This document shows positions 1-39,170 of a stretch of DNA of 39,903 bases, piece by piece. The notes beneath the pieces are model-generated. The model was not told the origin of the DNA, ran no database searches, and was given only the letters and a program-made list of their open reading frames with translations. This stretch comes from Acidobacteriota bacterium. GTDB taxonomy: Bacteria; Acidobacteriota; Vicinamibacteria; Marinacidobacterales; Marinacidobacteraceae. How positions within the stretch are numbered: the first letter of the stretch is position 1; each line of letters starts with the position of its first letter. Position numbers and translations under genes: made by a program. Where the stretch lies: contig VXWI01000111.1 in assembly GCA_009835985.1 (NCBI GenBank), positions 1 to 39,903 on the forward strand. Direction: 5' to 3'.

Positions 1-205
1 GGCCGGCATCGCCCCAGTCCTCCCGGTGGGGGCGCGCAGCGAAGCGAAACGCGCATCGTCGGTCTTCCGGCATGGCTCGGCGCCAAACGGGACGGTGCGG
101 TGCCATCGTTCGCCGTCCCCGGTTCGGCTCACGCCCTGCGAGTCGACGGCGTCGTGCGTTTCGCGGCCTGGGGCCGCGATGCCGGCCGGAGGCCGGCGCT
201 CCGAA
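1..205. repeat. REPIN-like inverted pair of palindromic repeats
   Basis: The right half (about 145-205, reading on the minus strand) holds two adjacent hairpins: GCCGGCC/GGCCGGC at 181-197 and GCGGCC/GGCCGC at 163-177. It then runs into GCGAAACGCACGACG. The left edge (1-60) holds a facing half that begins GGCCGGCATCGCCCC and ends GCGAAACGCGCATCGTCGG. The two halves are therefore inverted relative to each other around a spacer of about 80 bp. The same unit, GGARCGCCGGYCTCC followed by RGRCCGGCA, recurs at 29363 and 39061. The left half is cut by the window edge. No believable gene lies in 1-313; the 63-codon open frame at 26-217 is made of this repeat. Confidence 0.6.
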
Positions 206-7088: not shown

Positions 7089-7272
7089 GGCAGCCGGTGG
7101 AGGAAGTCACGTGAGCGCCGAGAGTGGCGAGGCGCCCGGTTGACAAGGCGCGCGAGGGAGGAATACCGGGTGTATTTCGACCGAAGCGCAACGCAGAGCG
7201 CCTCGAAGAGGCGCGGTTCAGGCGGGATGCGTCGCCGCTCGAACGCCGCGTGACTTTCTGCACCGGCTGCCA
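7089..7272 (+). mobile_element. MITE-like inverted-repeat element, copy 1
   Basis: A 184-bp noncoding unit. The left terminal repeat is GGCAGCCGGTGGAGGAAGTC, and the reverse complement of the right end reads GGCAGCCGGTGCAGAAAGTC. The interior shares long blocks with copies at 11475-11805 and 34259-34457, notably GCGCAACGCAGAGCGCC and the near-palindrome GGAATACCGGGTGTATTTC. No transposase is encoded, so any movement would need an enzyme supplied in trans. The left end touches the decarboxylase start codon, and that gene is transcribed outward from it. Confidence 0.7.
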
Positions 7273-11478: not shown

Positions 11479-11805
11479 CAGCCTGTGGACAAAGTCACGC
11501 GGCATTCCCGAGCCAAGAGGGATAGGGGCCGGGTGAACCCGTCCCCTGCCCCTCTCGCTCCGGGGTCTGCGCGGGGCTCACGCCCCGCTAACGACGCGAA
11601 CGCCGATGCATCCCGCCTGAACCGCGCCTCTACGAGGCGCTCTGCGTTGCGTTTCGGTCGGAATACACTCGGTATGCCTCCCTCACGCGCCTTGTCGGCC
11701 GGGCCCCCACCGGGAGGACTGGCCCCACCGGGAGGACTGGCCCCACCGGGAGAACTGGGCCTGAGCGTTCTCGGTGCTCACGTCACTTTGTCCACAGGCT
11801 GCTAA
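11475..11805 (-). mobile_element. MITE-like inverted-repeat element, copy 2, inside the ABC operon
   Basis: A 331-bp unit. The left end TTAGCAGCCTGTGGACAAAGT (11475-11495) matches the reverse complement of the right end (11785-11805) over 21 bases; with one mismatch the match extends to 25. A TA dinucleotide just outside each GCAGCC end would fit a TA target duplication. The interior carries the same core as copies 1 and 3 in the opposite orientation (TCTGCGTTGCGTTTCGGTC). It also has a unique insert of about 90 bp with two hairpins (one is GCGGGGC/GCCCCGC at 11571-11588) and an 18-bp tandem repeat. No protein is encoded. It separates the second permease from the ATPase gene. Confidence 0.8.
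11705..11758 (+). repeat. Three tandem 18-bp units within the element
   Basis: Three head-to-tail copies of CCCCACCGGGAGGACTGG; the third has one G to A change. The same unit is present once in element copy 3 (near 34410-34430) and, inverted, near 12-30 at the left window edge. It is absent from copy 1. The copy-number difference points to slippage. Confidence 0.85.
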
Positions 11806-22911: not shown

Positions 22912-22977
22912 CCGATCCGGGGGCGGCGCTCGCCTCGCCGACAGGATTTGTCGCGTTTGAATCCTAGAGTGGGAACC

Positions 22978-25900
22978 GTGCCGAAGCGATTTGTCAAGAG
23001 CCCGCGGGCGGCGGTGCGGATCGCGGCGGCCCGCCGGTTTCTCGAGGAGCTCGGCACGAAGCGGCCGTTCCTCGTCGTCGCGGCCGGCCGCCACGCCGCC
23101 GACCGGATCGTCCACGAGGTGGCGGAGACGAGAGGCCCTTCCGGCGCGCTCCTCGGCGCCTTCCGCTTCGGCCTGTTCGTTCTCGCCCAGGAGCTCGCGC
23201 GCGCCGAATTGGCGGCGCGCCAACTCCGGGCGCTCACCCCGGCAGCGAGGCTCGCGGCGGTCGTCCGGGTCATCCACCGGGCACGCCGGCAGGGAACGCT
23301 GGGCCGATTCGGCGAAGCCGCCGAGGGTCCGGGGCTCGCCGTCCGGCTCGCCACCACGGTCGACGAACTGCGCCGGGCAGGCGTCGGCGCCGCCCGGCTG
23401 GGCGGCCGGGGCGGCGGCCGCGGGGCGCGCTACGGCGCCTACCGGGAGACGCTGGCCGAGGTAGGCCTCGCCGACCGGGCGGAGACGTTCGCCGCCGCCA
23501 CCCGCAGGATCGAACGCGGCGCCGGTCCGCCGGTGGGCCTCCCCCTCCTCCTGCTGGACGTTCCGCTCTGGGGCGCGGCGGCGCGCCGTTTCGCGGGCGT
23601 CCTGGCTGGAGCCGCCCCCGAGGTGTTCCTGACGCTGCCCGAGGGGGACACCGCCACCGAGGAGGCCGTGCTCGCGCTTGGGGCCGAGCCGCTCCCGGCA
23701 CCCGAAGCGGGCTCGGAAGACGCGCCGCCCGACGACGCGGTGGCTTCGGCGCAACGCCACCTGTTCGCCACCCGGCGGCCCGATCCCGACCGGGAACGCC
23801 ACGGGCTCAGCGTGATCGCGGCGCCCGGAACCGCGGCGGAGGCGATCGAGCACGCCCGCGGGTTTCTCGCCGAGGCGGGCGAAGGTGTTCCGTTCGACCG
23901 GATGGCCGTCCTCCTCCCCGAGCCTGCCGGTCAGGCTTCGGCGTTTCAGGAAGCCTTCGAGCGCGCCCGGATCCCGGCGTTTTTCGATGCCGGCGCCCGG
24001 CGGCCGCACCCGGCCGGGCGCGCCTTTGTGGTCCTGCTCGACTGTGCGCGGGAGGGGCTGTCCGCCACGCGGTTCGCGGAGTACCTGTCGCTGGGAGAGA
24101 CTCCGTCCGCCCCAACGGGGCTACCCGAGGCCGACGCCGAGGGAGATGAGGCGCTGGAGGTCCCGGGTTTCGTGGCGCCGCGCCGCTGGGAGCGGCTCAT
24201 CCTGGATTCCGAGGTCATCGGGGGTCTCGACCGCTGGGAAAGACGCCTCGCCCACTTCGCGGATCGGCTGCGGCAGGACGAAGAGGCGGAGGAGGATGAG
24301 GCGAGGCGGGAGCACCACCGGCTGCGCCAGGGAGACCTCCGGCGTCTGACCGAGACCGCCCTTCCCATCCTCCGCCGGCTGGCGGCCCTCCCCTCCCCGC
24401 ACGCGAGCTATTCGGAGTGGACGCGTCACCTCGACGGGCTCGCCCGCGCCGCACTTCTCCATCCCCAGGGCGTCATCGACTGCCTGGCGGAAACGGACCC
24501 GATGCGGGATGTGAGCGAAGTCACCCTCGACGAGGTGCGGGAAAGCCTCGCCGGACGGCTGGCCGAGGTGGTCACCCGCTCCCGGGGCAGCCGCTACGGC
24601 CGGGTCTGGGTGGGGCCCATCGACGCCGCGCGCGGGCTCGCCTTCGACGTGGTGGCCGTCCCGGGACTCTCCGAACGGGCGTTCCCCCGCGTGCTCCGCG
24701 AAGATCCGATGCTCCTCGACCGGGAGCGCGCAGCGCTCACTCCGGACTTGCCGGTGCGTTCCGATCTGGCCGAGCGCGAACGCCTGCGGCTCCGGATCGG
24801 GGTCGGCGCGGCCACCCGGAGACTCACGCTCAGCTATTCCTCGCTGAATCTCGTCGAGGGCCGCCCCCAGGTGCCGTCGTACTACCTGGCGGAAGCGTTC
24901 CGGGCGGGTCTCGGGAAGATTCCGACGCTCGCCCAAATCCGTTCCCGGGCGGGCCGGGAGAGCAAGGTGGTTCGCGGGATTCGCGCGCCCCGCGACGCGT
25001 CGCTCGCGATCGACCGGCGCGAGTTCGATCTGGCGCAGGTCGCGTCCGCTCTCGGAAGGCCGGAGGCCCGCGCCGCAGACGCCGGGGCGGCAGCGTATCT
25101 GCTCTCCGATCCGGCGCTGGCGCGGGCGCTTCGCCAGGAGTACATGCGCCAGCAGTGGAAGTGGCAGTCTCCCGACGGTTTCCTGAACCCGAACCAGGCC
25201 GCGCTGGAAGCGCTGGAACGGCACCGCCCCGGGAACCGTTCCTTCTCGGCGACCGGCCTCGAGGCGTACGCCGCCTGCCCCTATCAGTTCTTTCTCAAGA
25301 ACCTCGTCCGGCTGCGGCCGGTCGAACGTCCCGAGGCGCTGGTCCACCTGGACCCGCTCACCCGCGGTTCCCTCCTGCACGACGTGTTCTTCCACCTGGG
25401 ACGCGAATTCCGGAAGCGCGGGCTGGCCCCGCTTCGGGAAGAACGGCTCGACGAGGCGTTCGATCTGCTGACGGAGATCTTCCAGCGGGTGGAAGCCGAA
25501 GTACGCGAGCGGGTCGCGCCGGCGATCGAGCGCATCTGGCGGGACCAGATGGACGGGCTGCTGGGCGACCTGCGCGGCTTCCTGCACCGGTACAAGGAGA
25601 CCGGGCGCGTCCCCCTGGCGAACGAGCTCACCTTCGGCATGGGGGCGAAACAACCCGCCGACCCAGCCAGCCGGACCGAGGCGGCGGTGCTTCCCGGCGG
25701 ACTCCGGCTCCACGGCTCGATCGACGTGGTCGAGCGGCTCCCCGACCGAACCGTGCAGATCACGGACTACAAGACCGGACGCGCCTCGATCGAGACCACC
25801 GACACCCAGAGCATCCTGTTCGGGGGCCGCGCCCTCCAGCCGCTCCTCTACGCCCTGGCCTACGAGGCGCTGTCCGGGTCGCCCGCGGCCTCGGGCCGGC

Positions 25901-26184
25901 TCTACTACGCGACCATCCGCGGCGCCTACCTGGAAACGGAGGTGGACGCCGCGAGCGAGACCTCGCGGACGGTCTTCGAGTCGTTCGTCGCCGGACTCGA
26001 CCGGGCGGTCCAGGGCGGGCGCTTCCCGGCCCTGCCCAATCCCGGGGTCACCTACCGGGTGTGCGACTACTGCGACTACCTCCCGGTCTGCGGACCGCGG
26101 CCCGCGGGGCACGCTCGAACCAAGGCCCGGGCCGGGTTCGCCGCCGCCCTCGACGACGTCGTCGGAATCCGGAGCCTCCCGTGA
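22978..26184 (+). CDS. addB: AddB-like PD-(D/E)XK nuclease subunit of a helicase-nuclease complex
   Basis: Partner subunit of an AddAB-type recombination complex that processes double-strand DNA ends for RecA. The N-terminal half is a helicase-like scaffold without a Walker A (FLVVAAGRHAADRIV where GxGKT would sit), as in the inactive AddB of several lineages. The C-terminal nuclease domain has GSLLHDVFF, then ITDYKTGRAS (catalytic Asp-x-Lys), and four cysteines consistent with an iron-sulfur cluster: one at AACPYQFFLKN and three at VCDYCDYLPVC. Length about 1068 residues fits. The start is uncertain: GTG 22978 chosen, TTG 22948 also possible. The stop overlaps the AddA-like start (GTGA). Confidence 0.85.
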   Translation: MPKRFVKSPRAAVRIAAARRFLEELGTKRPFLVVAAGRHAADRIVHEVAETRGPSGALLGAFRFGLFVLAQELARAELAARQLRALTPAARLAAVVRVIHRARRQGTLGRFGEAAEGPGLAVRLATTVDELRRAGVGAARLGGRGGGRGARYGAYRETLAEVGLADRAETFAAATRRIERGAGPPVGLPLLLLDVPLWGAAARRFAGVLAGAAPEVFLTLPEGDTATEEAVLALGAEPLPAPEAGSEDAPPDDAVASAQRHLFATRRPDPDRERHGLSVIAAPGTAAEAIEHARGFLAEAGEGVPFDRMAVLLPEPAGQASAFQEAFERARIPAFFDAGARRPHPAGRAFVVLLDCAREGLSATRFAEYLSLGETPSAPTGLPEADAEGDEALEVPGFVAPRRWERLILDSEVIGGLDRWERRLAHFADRLRQDEEAEEDEARREHHRLRQGDLRRLTETALPILRRLAALPSPHASYSEWTRHLDGLARAALLHPQGVIDCLAETDPMRDVSEVTLDEVRESLAGRLAEVVTRSRGSRYGRVWVGPIDAARGLAFDVVAVPGLSERAFPRVLREDPMLLDRERAALTPDLPVRSDLAERERLRLRIGVGAATRRLTLSYSSLNLVEGRPQVPSYYLAEAFRAGLGKIPTLAQIRSRAGRESKVVRGIRAPRDASLAIDRREFDLAQVASALGRPEARAADAGAAAYLLSDPALARALRQEYMRQQWKWQSPDGFLNPNQAALEALERHRPGNRSFSATGLEAYAACPYQFFLKNLVRLRPVERPEALVHLDPLTRGSLLHDVFFHLGREFRKRGLAPLREERLDEAFDLLTEIFQRVEAEVRERVAPAIERIWRDQMDGLLGDLRGFLHRYKETGRVPLANELTFGMGAKQPADPASRTEAAVLPGGLRLHGSIDVVERLPDRTVQITDYKTGRASIETTDTQSILFGGRALQPLLYALAYEALSGSPAASGRLYYATIRGAYLETEVDAASETSRTVFESFVAGLDRAVQGGRFPALPNPGVTYRVCDYCDYLPVCGPRPAGHARTKARAGFAAALDDVVGIRSLP

Positions 26185-29100
26185 GCGTACTGCCGGACGC
26201 CGCGGCCCGGGAGCGCATCCGCCGGGACCACGACACCACGCTGATCGTGGAGGCGGCGGCCGGCACGGGGAAGACCACGTCGGTTGTCGACAGGGTGGTG
26301 GAAATGGTGGCCGCGGGTACCGCCCGGATCGGGCAGATCGCCGCGATCACCTTCACGGAGAAAGCCGCCGGTGAACTGCGGCTCAGAATCCGGCAGGGCC
26401 TCGAGGCCCGGATCGAAAGCACGGCGGCCGGCCCGGAAGGGGCAACCGCGGGACCGCGCCTCGAAGCGGCGCTCTCCCAGATCGAGGAGGCGTCCATCGG
26501 GACCATCCACGCCTTTTGCGCCACCATCCTGCGGGAGCGCCCCATCGAGGCCGGGGTGGACCCCGACTTCCGGATCCTGACGGACGCCGAGCAGCGGGCC
26601 TTCTTCGACCGGGTCTTCCGCCATTTCGTCGACCGGCAGCTCGAGGGACCGGGACCGGGCATCGGCCGCCTGCTGCGCCGCAGCCGGAACCCGATGGTGA
26701 GCCCGCTCGACGTCCTCCACCAGGCCGGCCTGCGGCTCCTCGACTACCGATCCCTCGACGCGCCGTGGAAGCGGCGCGCCTGGGATGCGGAGACCGCGAT
26801 CCTGGAGCTGGTCGATCAACCCGGCGGCGGGAAGAGCGAACCGGGCCCTTCCCTCTTCATGCTCGAGGAGCTCTACCGGTCGCTCCCGAAGGACCCGCCG
26901 GGCACGAAACCCAACTGGCTGATCCGCTCTCTCGCCGCCGCCGCGGATCTCGCCCGGGAGGTCCGGGCGCGGGAAGCCGGCTCCGGAAGAGATCTGGACT
27001 GGCTCGAGCAGGCGCTCGCGGAGCTCAGGGTCCCGGCGTATGGCGGCCGCACGCCATCCGGCTTCCCCCACACCCGAAAGTGGCGTGACGCCTTCCGGAC
27101 CCGGCTCGCCGCGTTCCAGCGGCAGAGCAATGCGGACCTCGCCGCCCTCCTGCGGGAGGACCTCCGCGGGTTGGTGGACGACTACGAGAGCGCAAAAGCG
27201 AAGGCGGGCCTTCTCGACTTCGACGACCTGCTCCTCCGGACGCGAAGCCTGCTCCGGGACGACGCGGAGGTTCGCCGGGAACTGGCGGGTCGATTCCGCC
27301 ACCTCGTGGTAGACGAATACCAGGACACCGACCCGATGCAGACGGAGATCGTCCTGCTGCTCACCGCCGAAGAGCCTCCGGACGGCGACTGGGACGAGGC
27401 GGTCCCGAGTCCCGGCCGGCTCTGCCTGGTCGGGGACCCCAAGCAGTCCATCTACCGATTCCGGCGGGCCGATGTGGGCCACTATCTCCGCGTCAAAGAG
27501 CGGCTGCTCGCCAGCGGCGCCGCCGAGGTCCGCCTGACCACGAACTTCCGTTCGGTTCCCGGCATCTGCGACTTCGTGAACCAGGTCCTGGGGCCGGCGT
27601 TTGAAACGCGCCCGGGGCCGGGAGGCCTCGCGCGGCAGGTGGACTACGTGCCGCTCCACGCTTTCCGGGAGCCGGCTGAGGGACCGGCGCTCGCCGCCAT
27701 CCCGCTGCCGCACACCCCCTACCTTCGGCACCTCGAGGAGCACGAGCCGCAGGCGGTCGCGGAGTTCGTCGGCGGACTTCTCGATAGGGGTTTCGAGGTC
27801 TCGGCGGCGGACGGAGGTCCCGCGCGGCGGGTGGAACCGAGCGACATCTGCCTGCTCTTCCGGCGGTTCCGGAACTACGGGCGGCTCGTGCCCCAACCCT
27901 ACGCCGACGCCCTCCAGGATCTCGGCATCCCCCACTCGCTGGCGGCGGTGCAGACCTACATCAGCAGCGCGGAACTGTCGTTCCTCCGGGCGGCCCTTAC
28001 CGCCGTCGAGTTTCCCGAGGACGAACTGAGCGTCTACGCGACCCTCCGGGGTCCGTTGTTCGCGATCCCGGACCAGGACCTCTTCCTCTTCCGGGAACGC
28101 CATCCGGAGATCCGGCTGAGGCCCGCCCGAGCCCGGTTCCTGGAGTTGGACGGCGACGACGCTGCCGGGACTCGGGCGGTGGACCGGACGATCCGGGACG
28201 GGCTTGCCTTCCTCTACGACCTCCACCGCCGGCGTACCCACCAGCCGATCGCGGTGACGCTCCAGCAGCTTCTGGGGAGACACCGCGCGGAAACCGGATT
28301 CGCGTTCTGGAACTCCCCGGACCAGGTGCTCTCGAACCTCCGCCGGCTCGGCGAGGCGGCGCGCGCCTTCGAGGCGCGCGGAGGACTCTCCTTCCGCGGG
28401 TTCGTGGAGCAACTCGCGTCGGAAGCGGAGAACCCGGACGCGGGATCCGCGCACGCCATCGACGAGGACGTGCGCGGCGTGCGGATCATGACCACCCATT
28501 CCGCCAAGGGACTCGAGTTCCCGGTTGTTGTCCTCTGCGACGGGGCCGCGCCGCGGCGCGGGCGGGCGGGCCGCATCGTGAACGCCGGGGAGCGGCTCTA
28601 CGCGTGCGATCTCGGCGCCGGCATCGTGCCCTGGGATCTCATCGAGGGGACCCCGGCCGAGGAGGCCGAGGATCTCGCGGAGCTCGACCGGCTCCTGTAC
28701 GTCGCGATGACCCGGGCCCGGGATCTCCTGGCGGCGCCGGTATCCGAGGGAGATTTCCCGGAGGAGAGCCTGCTCGTCCGGGTGGCGGCAGGCCTCAAAC
28801 CACTGCGCGGACGCGGCGCCGTCACACCCCGGACACGCGAGTCGGGGCCTTCGGGCAGAGCGGTGAACCGGCGGGGAACCACCCCGCTATGGGACCTGCT
28901 CAAGGCGGATGCGGCCGGCGACGCTCCGGGCGACGGAAAGGCAGCCGAAGCCGCCTTCCTCGCCCGGCAGCGGCAAGCCGTCGATGCCGGGCGGGTCCCG
29001 ACCCGCCGGGCAATCCCGGCCACCGCGTTCGCCGCGCTGGAATCCTCCGGCGACCCGGTGGACCCCCGGGAGGTGGACGTCGTGGGACCGGTTGTCGAAG

Positions 29101-29717
29101 GACTGCCGCGGGACGCGGAGCGCCCGGCCGGGGTCGGTTTCGGGGCGCTGGTCCACCGGGTCCTCGAGCAGATTCCTCTGGACGCAGAAAAGGCGGAGAT
29201 CGAGGCGGAGGCCGCCCGCACCGTCCGGGAACTGGAACTCCGGGACGAACTCGGCCCCGCGGCGGCGAAGGCGGTGAGCGCGGCGCTCGGCCACCCGGTC
29301 CTGGCCGAGGCGCGCAAAGCCGAAGAACAGGGCGTGTGCTACCGCGAACTGCCGCTCCTCCACTTGGAACGCCGGTCTCCAGACCGGCACGACGGCCCTC
29401 CGGGCCGCGAAACCGCGCCGCGCCAGACGCTCGAAACCGCGTCGGCGCTGGAGGTGGAGTCATTCGAAGAGCCCGCCGACGCCGCCATCCCCGCCGATTC
29501 CGGCCCGACCCTGGTGGAGGGAGTCGCCGATCTGGTCTTCCAGCCGGACGCCGAGGGCACCTGGACGGTCCTCGACTTCAAGACGGACTCCCGGCCACCC
29601 GGGGACCCCGAGTTCCAGGCCAGCCAGACCCGCTATCGCCGGCAGGTCGCTCTCTACGCCCGGGCGGTCGAGCGCGCCACCGGCCAACCCGCCAAAGGCG
29701 TCCTGCTCTACGTGTAG
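26181..29717 (+). CDS. addA: AddA-like UvrD/Rep-family helicase-nuclease
   Basis: ATP-dependent 3'-5' DNA helicase with a C-terminal nuclease domain. Walker A is AAAGTGKTT at residues 25-33; motif Ia follows with AAITFTEKAAGELRLRI; motif II DEYQDTDPMQ is near residue 378; GDPKQSIYRFRRAD is motif III; VRIMTTHSAKGLEFPVV is motif V and LLYVAMTRARDLL motif VI. The nuclease domain ends with VDGVADLVF-type VEGVADLVF, DFKTD near residue 1131 and Q-x3-Y motifs (RRQVALYA). The coding order addB then addA and the GTGA overlap support one operon. Between RELPLLH and VEGVAD about 45 extra residues (about 1060-1105) contain a palindromic repeat read in frame. GTG 26181 is chosen by the overlap; a longer frame to 24417 is a shadow of AddB. 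Confidence 0.9.
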   Translation: MSVLPDAAARERIRRDHDTTLIVEAAAGTGKTTSVVDRVVEMVAAGTARIGQIAAITFTEKAAGELRLRIRQGLEARIESTAAGPEGATAGPRLEAALSQIEEASIGTIHAFCATILRERPIEAGVDPDFRILTDAEQRAFFDRVFRHFVDRQLEGPGPGIGRLLRRSRNPMVSPLDVLHQAGLRLLDYRSLDAPWKRRAWDAETAILELVDQPGGGKSEPGPSLFMLEELYRSLPKDPPGTKPNWLIRSLAAAADLAREVRAREAGSGRDLDWLEQALAELRVPAYGGRTPSGFPHTRKWRDAFRTRLAAFQRQSNADLAALLREDLRGLVDDYESAKAKAGLLDFDDLLLRTRSLLRDDAEVRRELAGRFRHLVVDEYQDTDPMQTEIVLLLTAEEPPDGDWDEAVPSPGRLCLVGDPKQSIYRFRRADVGHYLRVKERLLASGAAEVRLTTNFRSVPGICDFVNQVLGPAFETRPGPGGLARQVDYVPLHAFREPAEGPALAAIPLPHTPYLRHLEEHEPQAVAEFVGGLLDRGFEVSAADGGPARRVEPSDICLLFRRFRNYGRLVPQPYADALQDLGIPHSLAAVQTYISSAELSFLRAALTAVEFPEDELSVYATLRGPLFAIPDQDLFLFRERHPEIRLRPARARFLELDGDDAAGTRAVDRTIRDGLAFLYDLHRRRTHQPIAVTLQQLLGRHRAETGFAFWNSPDQVLSNLRRLGEAARAFEARGGLSFRGFVEQLASEAENPDAGSAHAIDEDVRGVRIMTTHSAKGLEFPVVVLCDGAAPRRGRAGRIVNAGERLYACDLGAGIVPWDLIEGTPAEEAEDLAELDRLLYVAMTRARDLLAAPVSEGDFPEESLLVRVAAGLKPLRGRGAVTPRTRESGPSGRAVNRRGTTPLWDLLKADAAGDAPGDGKAAEAAFLARQRQAVDAGRVPTRRAIPATAFAALESSGDPVDPREVDVVGPVVEGLPRDAERPAGVGFGALVHRVLEQIPLDAEKAEIEAEAARTVRELELRDELGPAAAKAVSAALGHPVLAEARKAEEQGVCYRELPLLHLERRSPDRHDGPPGRETAPRQTLETASALEVESFEEPADAAIPADSGPTLVEGVADLVFQPDAEGTWTVLDFKTDSRPPGDPEFQASQTRYRRQVALYARAVERATGQPAKGVLLYV
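29363..29416 (+). repeat. REP-like palindromic repeat inside the AddA-like coding region
   Basis: TTGGAACGCCGGTCTCC and then AGACCGGC form an 8-bp stem (29371-29388), followed by GGCCC-TCC-GGGCC at 29394-29406 and GCGAAAC. It is the same unit as 39061-39110 and, inverted, about 150-205. It is read in frame as ERRSPDRHDGPPGRETAPRQ, and the frame is not disrupted. Confidence 0.75.
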
Positions 29718-34258: not shown

Positions 34259-34457
34259 CCGCCGGTGGTGAAATCCGCGTGAGCGCCGAGCCCGGTGAGG
34301 CGCCCGGCTGACAAGGCGCGTGAGGGAGGAATACCGGGTGTATTCCGACCGAAACGCAACGCAGAGCGGAGCAAAGCGGAGTGGTTCAGCCGGGATGCAT
34401 CGCCGGGCGCCCCCCCACCGGGAGAACTGGGCCGCGGGGGTTTTGCCACCGGCTGTT
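34259..34457 (+). mobile_element. MITE-like inverted-repeat element, copy 3
   Basis: A 199-bp unit with decayed ends: left CCGCCGGTGGTGAAATCCGC, right end reverse complement AACAGCCGGTGGCAAAACCC. The core matches copy 1 and copy 2, including the perfect hairpin GGAATAC (34328-34334) / GTATTCC (34340-34346) and CGAAACGCAACGCAGAGCGG. One unit of the 18-bp repeat is present. The left end adjoins the peptidase start, and that gene is transcribed outward. Confidence 0.7.
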
Positions 34458-39060: not shown

Positions 39061-39170
39061 CTTGGACCGCCGGTCTCCAGACCGGCATGCGCGGAGCTCT
39101 GCGCCGCGCACGTCGTAACCCCACCACCCCTTACGGCACACCCGGCTTGGAACGCCGACCTAGATCACGG
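39061..39170 (+). repeat. Composite palindromic repeat (REP-like unit plus second module)
   Basis: The first part has GCCGGTCT/AGACCGGC (39069-39086) and GCGCGGAG/CTCTGCGC (39089-39104), like 29363-29416. The second part (39111-39161) repeats 29731-29781 and ends in CGGCTTGGAACGCCG. It fills most of the 202-bp spacer after the aminotransferase gene, where no gene is seen. Confidence 0.7.

Follow-up and report, generated by a model that had tools for sequence, protein, structure and literature searches.

An AddA-type helicase-nuclease of an uncultured Acidobacterium contains a REP-like palindromic element that is translated in frame within its nuclease domain. The best explanation, to which we assign a probability of about 0.8, is that a REP-like element mobilised by a RAYT (REP-associated tyrosine transposase) entered a long, probably disordered linker of AddA in the common ancestor of three species of the genus and was then kept. 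The window, i.e., the whole stretch of 39,903 nts that was analysed, belongs to a 3.34 Mb metagenome assembly (G000), and its relatives are labelled G002 and G004-G009. The relevant features of the window are the following.

150..205, minus strand: intergenic family B copy, whose bases 176-203 match the family B head exactly
22948..26184, plus strand: AddB-like gene (PD-(D/E)XK nuclease; PDDEXK_1, 123.8 bits), upstream of addA
26181..29717, plus strand: AddA-type helicase-nuclease gene (GTG start; Pfam UvrD-helicase, UvrD_C, PDDEXK_1)
29361..29429 (ends approximate), plus strand: REP-like element, residues ~1061-1082 (LERRSPDRHDGPPGRETAPRQT), from genome copies of the head, intergenic blastn matches and orthologues
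29371..29388, plus strand: first palindrome GCCGGTCTCCAGACCGGC, a stem-loop found by palindrome search and paired in the RNA fold
29393..29409, plus strand: second palindrome ACGGCCCTCCGGGCCGC, with a GGCCC/GGGCC core, paired in the RNA fold
29430..29508, plus strand: ancestral variable linker, not REP-derived, aligning with the REP-free G006
29509..29584, plus strand: nuclease strands, VEGVAD to DFKTD catalytic region, with invariant D and K columns in the alignment
39061..39140, plus strand: intergenic family A copy sharing 26/27 bases (96%) with the addA copy

The GTG start codon of addA shares bases with the stop codon of the adjoining AddB-like gene (GTGA overlap). Its product combines an SF1 helicase with a C-terminal PD-(D/E)XK nuclease and, in a search with a model of the C-terminal 335 residues, the closest solved structures were AddA chains, followed by RecB. 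The protein scores below the NCBIfam equivalog cut-offs for addA_Gpos (257.5 vs 707.65 bits) and addA_alphas (214.1 vs 860.75 bits). It is AddA-type by architecture and lies outside these two curated subfamilies.

An earlier note on this DNA described a palindromic repeat in frame inside an AddA-like nuclease domain, which is confirmed by the palindromic unit CTTGGAACGCCGGTCTCCAGACCGGCACGACGGCCCTCCGGGCCGCGAAAC at 29363-29413, between the RELPLLH strand and the VEGVAD strand. In addA, the unit consists of two adjacent hairpins and ~16 further bases resembling REP tails. It lies wholly inside the gene and is translated without a stop, which corresponds to an intragenic REP in the usage of Di Nocera et al. 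(2013). The claim that the frame and the catalytic residues are kept also holds, the E of REL, the D of VEGVAD and the D, K and D of DFKTD being invariant in the AddA alignment. The transcript can pair both hairpins, with a modest z-score of -1.9 for the window copy and of -2.6 for the G002 form; the second palindrome of the window copy has lost two outer pairs compared with G002 and G007. The insert is shorter than the ~45 residues first proposed: the REP accounts for just ~22 of them (1061-1082, window 29364-29429), and the ~25 residues that follow (~1083-1107) align with the REP-free AddA of G006 (FEPGSALAGESFADPGDTSLPAGSGPT).

The element belongs to a repeat family, termed family A, whose typical copies read GGCTTGGAACGCCGGTCTCCAGACCGGCACCGCGGCGCTCCGCGCCGCGCACGTCGTAACCCCACC. 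The 25-mer head, with up to 3 mismatches, matches 37 times in the genome and never in the reversed control, while the bare palindrome, with up to 2 mismatches, matches 72 times vs 2 in the control. A blastn of the AddA linker DNA against intergenic copies gave E values down to 8e-16. A sister family B with a different head (GGAGCGCCGGCCTCCGGCCGGC; CGGAGCGCCGGCCTCCGGCCGGCATCGC) counts ~200 copies in the genome, and these copy numbers are probably underestimates since REPs probably break the assemblies, in which contig ends often lie <100 bases from a REP (e.g., G000:C63:26, C106:37; G002:C11:33, C42:26). Of the two other copies that had been assigned to the addA repeat, the one at 39061 is indeed of the same family and the one at about 150-205 belongs to family B. 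Family A is present in 7 of the 8 genomes of the genus; a search of six more genera, from the same family, order and class, and of 296 further genomes of the phylum found no copy. Distant homologues carrying the insert were looked for as well and none was found. Together with the many intergenic copies, the idea of an inserted repeat thus withstood both checks proposed for it beforehand. A second interspersed repeat of ~110-145 nts and 85-89% identity, with a head that is not REP-like, occurs in the window at 7093-7237 (+), 11597-11707 (-) and 34261-34405 (+), and further copies are found elsewhere in the genome (loci L024 and L091).

The genome of the window encodes one RAYT (NF047646 equivalog, 93 bits vs a cut-off of 80). 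Its gene has three family B REPs in direct orientation on one side and three inverted ones on the other, forming a REPtron (L031 / L293, G000:C102 around 28539), and the RAYT is likely to be the mobiliser. Family A REPs adjoin RAYT genes only in G005 and G007. From such adjacency and published REP/RAYT work, we infer that a RAYT also moves family A. In REP/RAYT systems and REPINs, a single-copy RAYT gene is flanked by inverted REPs, the other copies are non-autonomous and the repeats are restricted to a genus (PMC2817692, PMC3116915, PMC8266576). The Acidobacterium is similar in having one RAYT gene flanked by inverted REPs, many non-autonomous copies and repeats confined to the genus, with the difference that its RAYT is flanked by family B and not by family A, the family found in addA.

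The part of AddA in which the element resides is long even without it. The sister genera G008 and G009 have linkers of about 50-65 residues at this place without the repeat, contrary to the earlier expectation that the inserted residues have no counterpart in the family. In most of the remaining AddA-type homologues of the class, this place is a short turn of only ~4-12 residues. Because ~25 residues align with G006 and the sister genera are long without repeats, the linker was already long when the element arrived. A REP origin of the entire expanded linker was considered and is unsupported, as the linkers of G008 and G009 are not repeated elsewhere in their own genomes (one weak 34-nt cross match). 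In an AlphaFold model (24 homologues), pLDDT exceeds 90 on both flanks and falls to ~38-62 in the loop. The insert is thus modelled as an external loop of the nuclease domain, a turn that joins two beta strands and is probably disordered.

In the AddA proteins of G002 (94% identity) and G007 (91%), which come from independent assemblies, the insert (LEPADGLERRSPDRHRGPPGRET) occupies the same site as in the window, and the three species form one supported clade in the AddA tree. In the window copy, LEPADG has been lost by an 18-nt in-frame deletion (six codons) beside the insert. The genus mate G006 has no REP in the AddA linker. In another genus mate, G004, a REP of another type, which contains CCACCGGGAGAACTGG as an additional module, is found in frame in the same linker (L036 / L269, G004:C7:75938-76044); many other places in the G004 genome match its bases 35-76 at 93-100% identity, and one other genomic copy matches ~80 bases at 85%. 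With the branching of G004 and G006 left open by the tree, this unit may have been inserted independently or may be the older unit after conversion. Hence, the insertion is bracketed by three species with the REP, one without any and one with another REP type.

In the proposed course of events, a RAYT-mobilised REP-like element would have transposed into the nuclease-domain linker of AddA before the three species diverged. It would have been retained because its length preserves the frame, the frame used is free of stops and the loop is external to the folded core. In the species of the window, an 18-nt in-frame deletion (LEPADG) between short LE-coding repeats may later have trimmed the edge of the insert. 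The AddA with the insert is presumably made and active, and the insert itself is presumably neutral.

The divergence of the element is lower than that of its surroundings. Among the three species, 1-3 of the 51 nts of the REP core differ, against 16-23 of the 90 nts in the 30 codons of linker that follow (Fisher p 0.001-0.006), a signal which rests on about three changes; in the rest of addA, 5.5-7.8% of positions differ. This hints at constraint or gene conversion. A purely neutral passenger would not predict it, and gene conversion, constraint on the hairpin or chance could explain it. Two broader tests were set aside. The conservation of REP heads over flanks in general (5.6% vs 15-24%) is a biased comparison because sites were chosen by their head pattern. 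A strict test had suggested that REP sites turn over rapidly and that addA is the near-sole conserved one; this was dropped after separate flank matching, which found roughly a dozen intergenic REP sites shared between G000 and G002.

In-frame copies were sought with a codon-usage test on the stretches around REP copies of the genus. Among the 242 copies classified, which have heads with at most 1 mismatch and include about half of the family B copies of the genome of the window, no gene but addA (G000, G002 and G007) has a copy in frame; the addA copy of G004 escapes this head pattern. By the same test, random 55-base stretches of the window scored as coding in 223 of 300 trials (74%). REP elements thus strongly avoid genes, with addA as the exception. 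Three other candidates were discarded: L193 and L154 are chance palindromes without a proper REP head, and L102, a marginal coding call, is a REP just after a stop codon.

Intragenic REPs have been described as small, high-copy palindromes, mostly intergenic and occasionally in frame, sometimes in one gene per species, with inserts of 20-30 residues whose tolerance was proposed to be due to flexible linkers (PMC3733652). Many of their host genes are for DNA repair, recBCD included (Di Nocera et al. 2013, PMC3733652), and in Xanthomonas campestris and X. oryzae different REPs occupy about the same site of recB (PMC3733652). The addA element is similar to these GTAG/CGTC REPs in being a mostly intergenic palindrome found in frame in a single gene, a repair gene, where it adds ~22 residues to a probably disordered linker. 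It differs in its hosts, Acidobacteria and AddA being outside those reported (PMC3733652), and in its structure, with a TTGGAAC/GGAG head tag and a unit of two different hairpins and a conserved tail. The terminal GTAG or CGTC tag is absent, the bases before the stem being GGAAC, GGAGC or GGACC in the copies. In-frame REPs were therefore already known (PMC3733652), and the present case is a fresh, clean example in another phylum and in AddA.

These parallels raise the alternative that RecB/AddA-type genes are preferentially hit by REPs or retain them, e.g., because the nuclease is altered by the insert or because the gene or the element benefits from the hairpin, as through a tuning of recombination and repair. 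The exclusive position of addA in the census, the two REP types in one AddA linker within the genus, the low divergence of the core and the recurrence of repair genes, with the shared recB site in Xanthomonas (PMC3733652), would all fit. However, the sister genera have a long and variable linker that is free of REPs, therefore tolerance alone suffices, and G006 has no REP. Since statistics would require more than one or two insertions, we regard this alternative as unlikely.

The palindromic elements of Rickettsia (RPE) are translated in frame in many genes, within presumably functional proteins. The earlier note had likened the addA repeat to them, and the likeness in description is real, since a palindromic repeat is translated in frame within a presumably functional protein. 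A family specialised for insertion into genes and for translation would be expected to be open in most frames, and the element is stop-free in 6 of 6 frames in the window copy and in 5 of 6 in the family A consensus; these open frames are explained by its G+C-richness. The census of 242 copies returned addA only, whereas RPE occupy many genes, and a general protein-coding element is very improbable when, addA apart, no classified copy lies inside a coding frame against 74% of random positions. The census points instead to a single insertion, tolerated in addA, of an element that is elsewhere extragenic and is better described as a RAYT-linked REP than as a Rickettsia-type coding palindrome. 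An artefact of assembly or chance is hardly credible: the assembly is metagenomic and many of its contigs end close to a REP, but the control counts are 0 to 2 and the same in-frame insert in the G002 and G007 assemblies refutes it.

The addA insert provides a phylogenetically bracketed case of a mobile palindrome turned into protein sequence. A bolder proposal, that the turn of the RecB/AddA nuclease domain is a recurrent and selectively favoured landing or retention site for REPs in unrelated phyla, is in our opinion decidedly improbable; if true, it would connect the repeat, or its RAYT, with the enzyme responsible for degrading and repairing broken DNA. Together with the Xanthomonas recB cases, the addA element makes the question of why in-frame REPs are so often found in DNA-repair genes a testable one.
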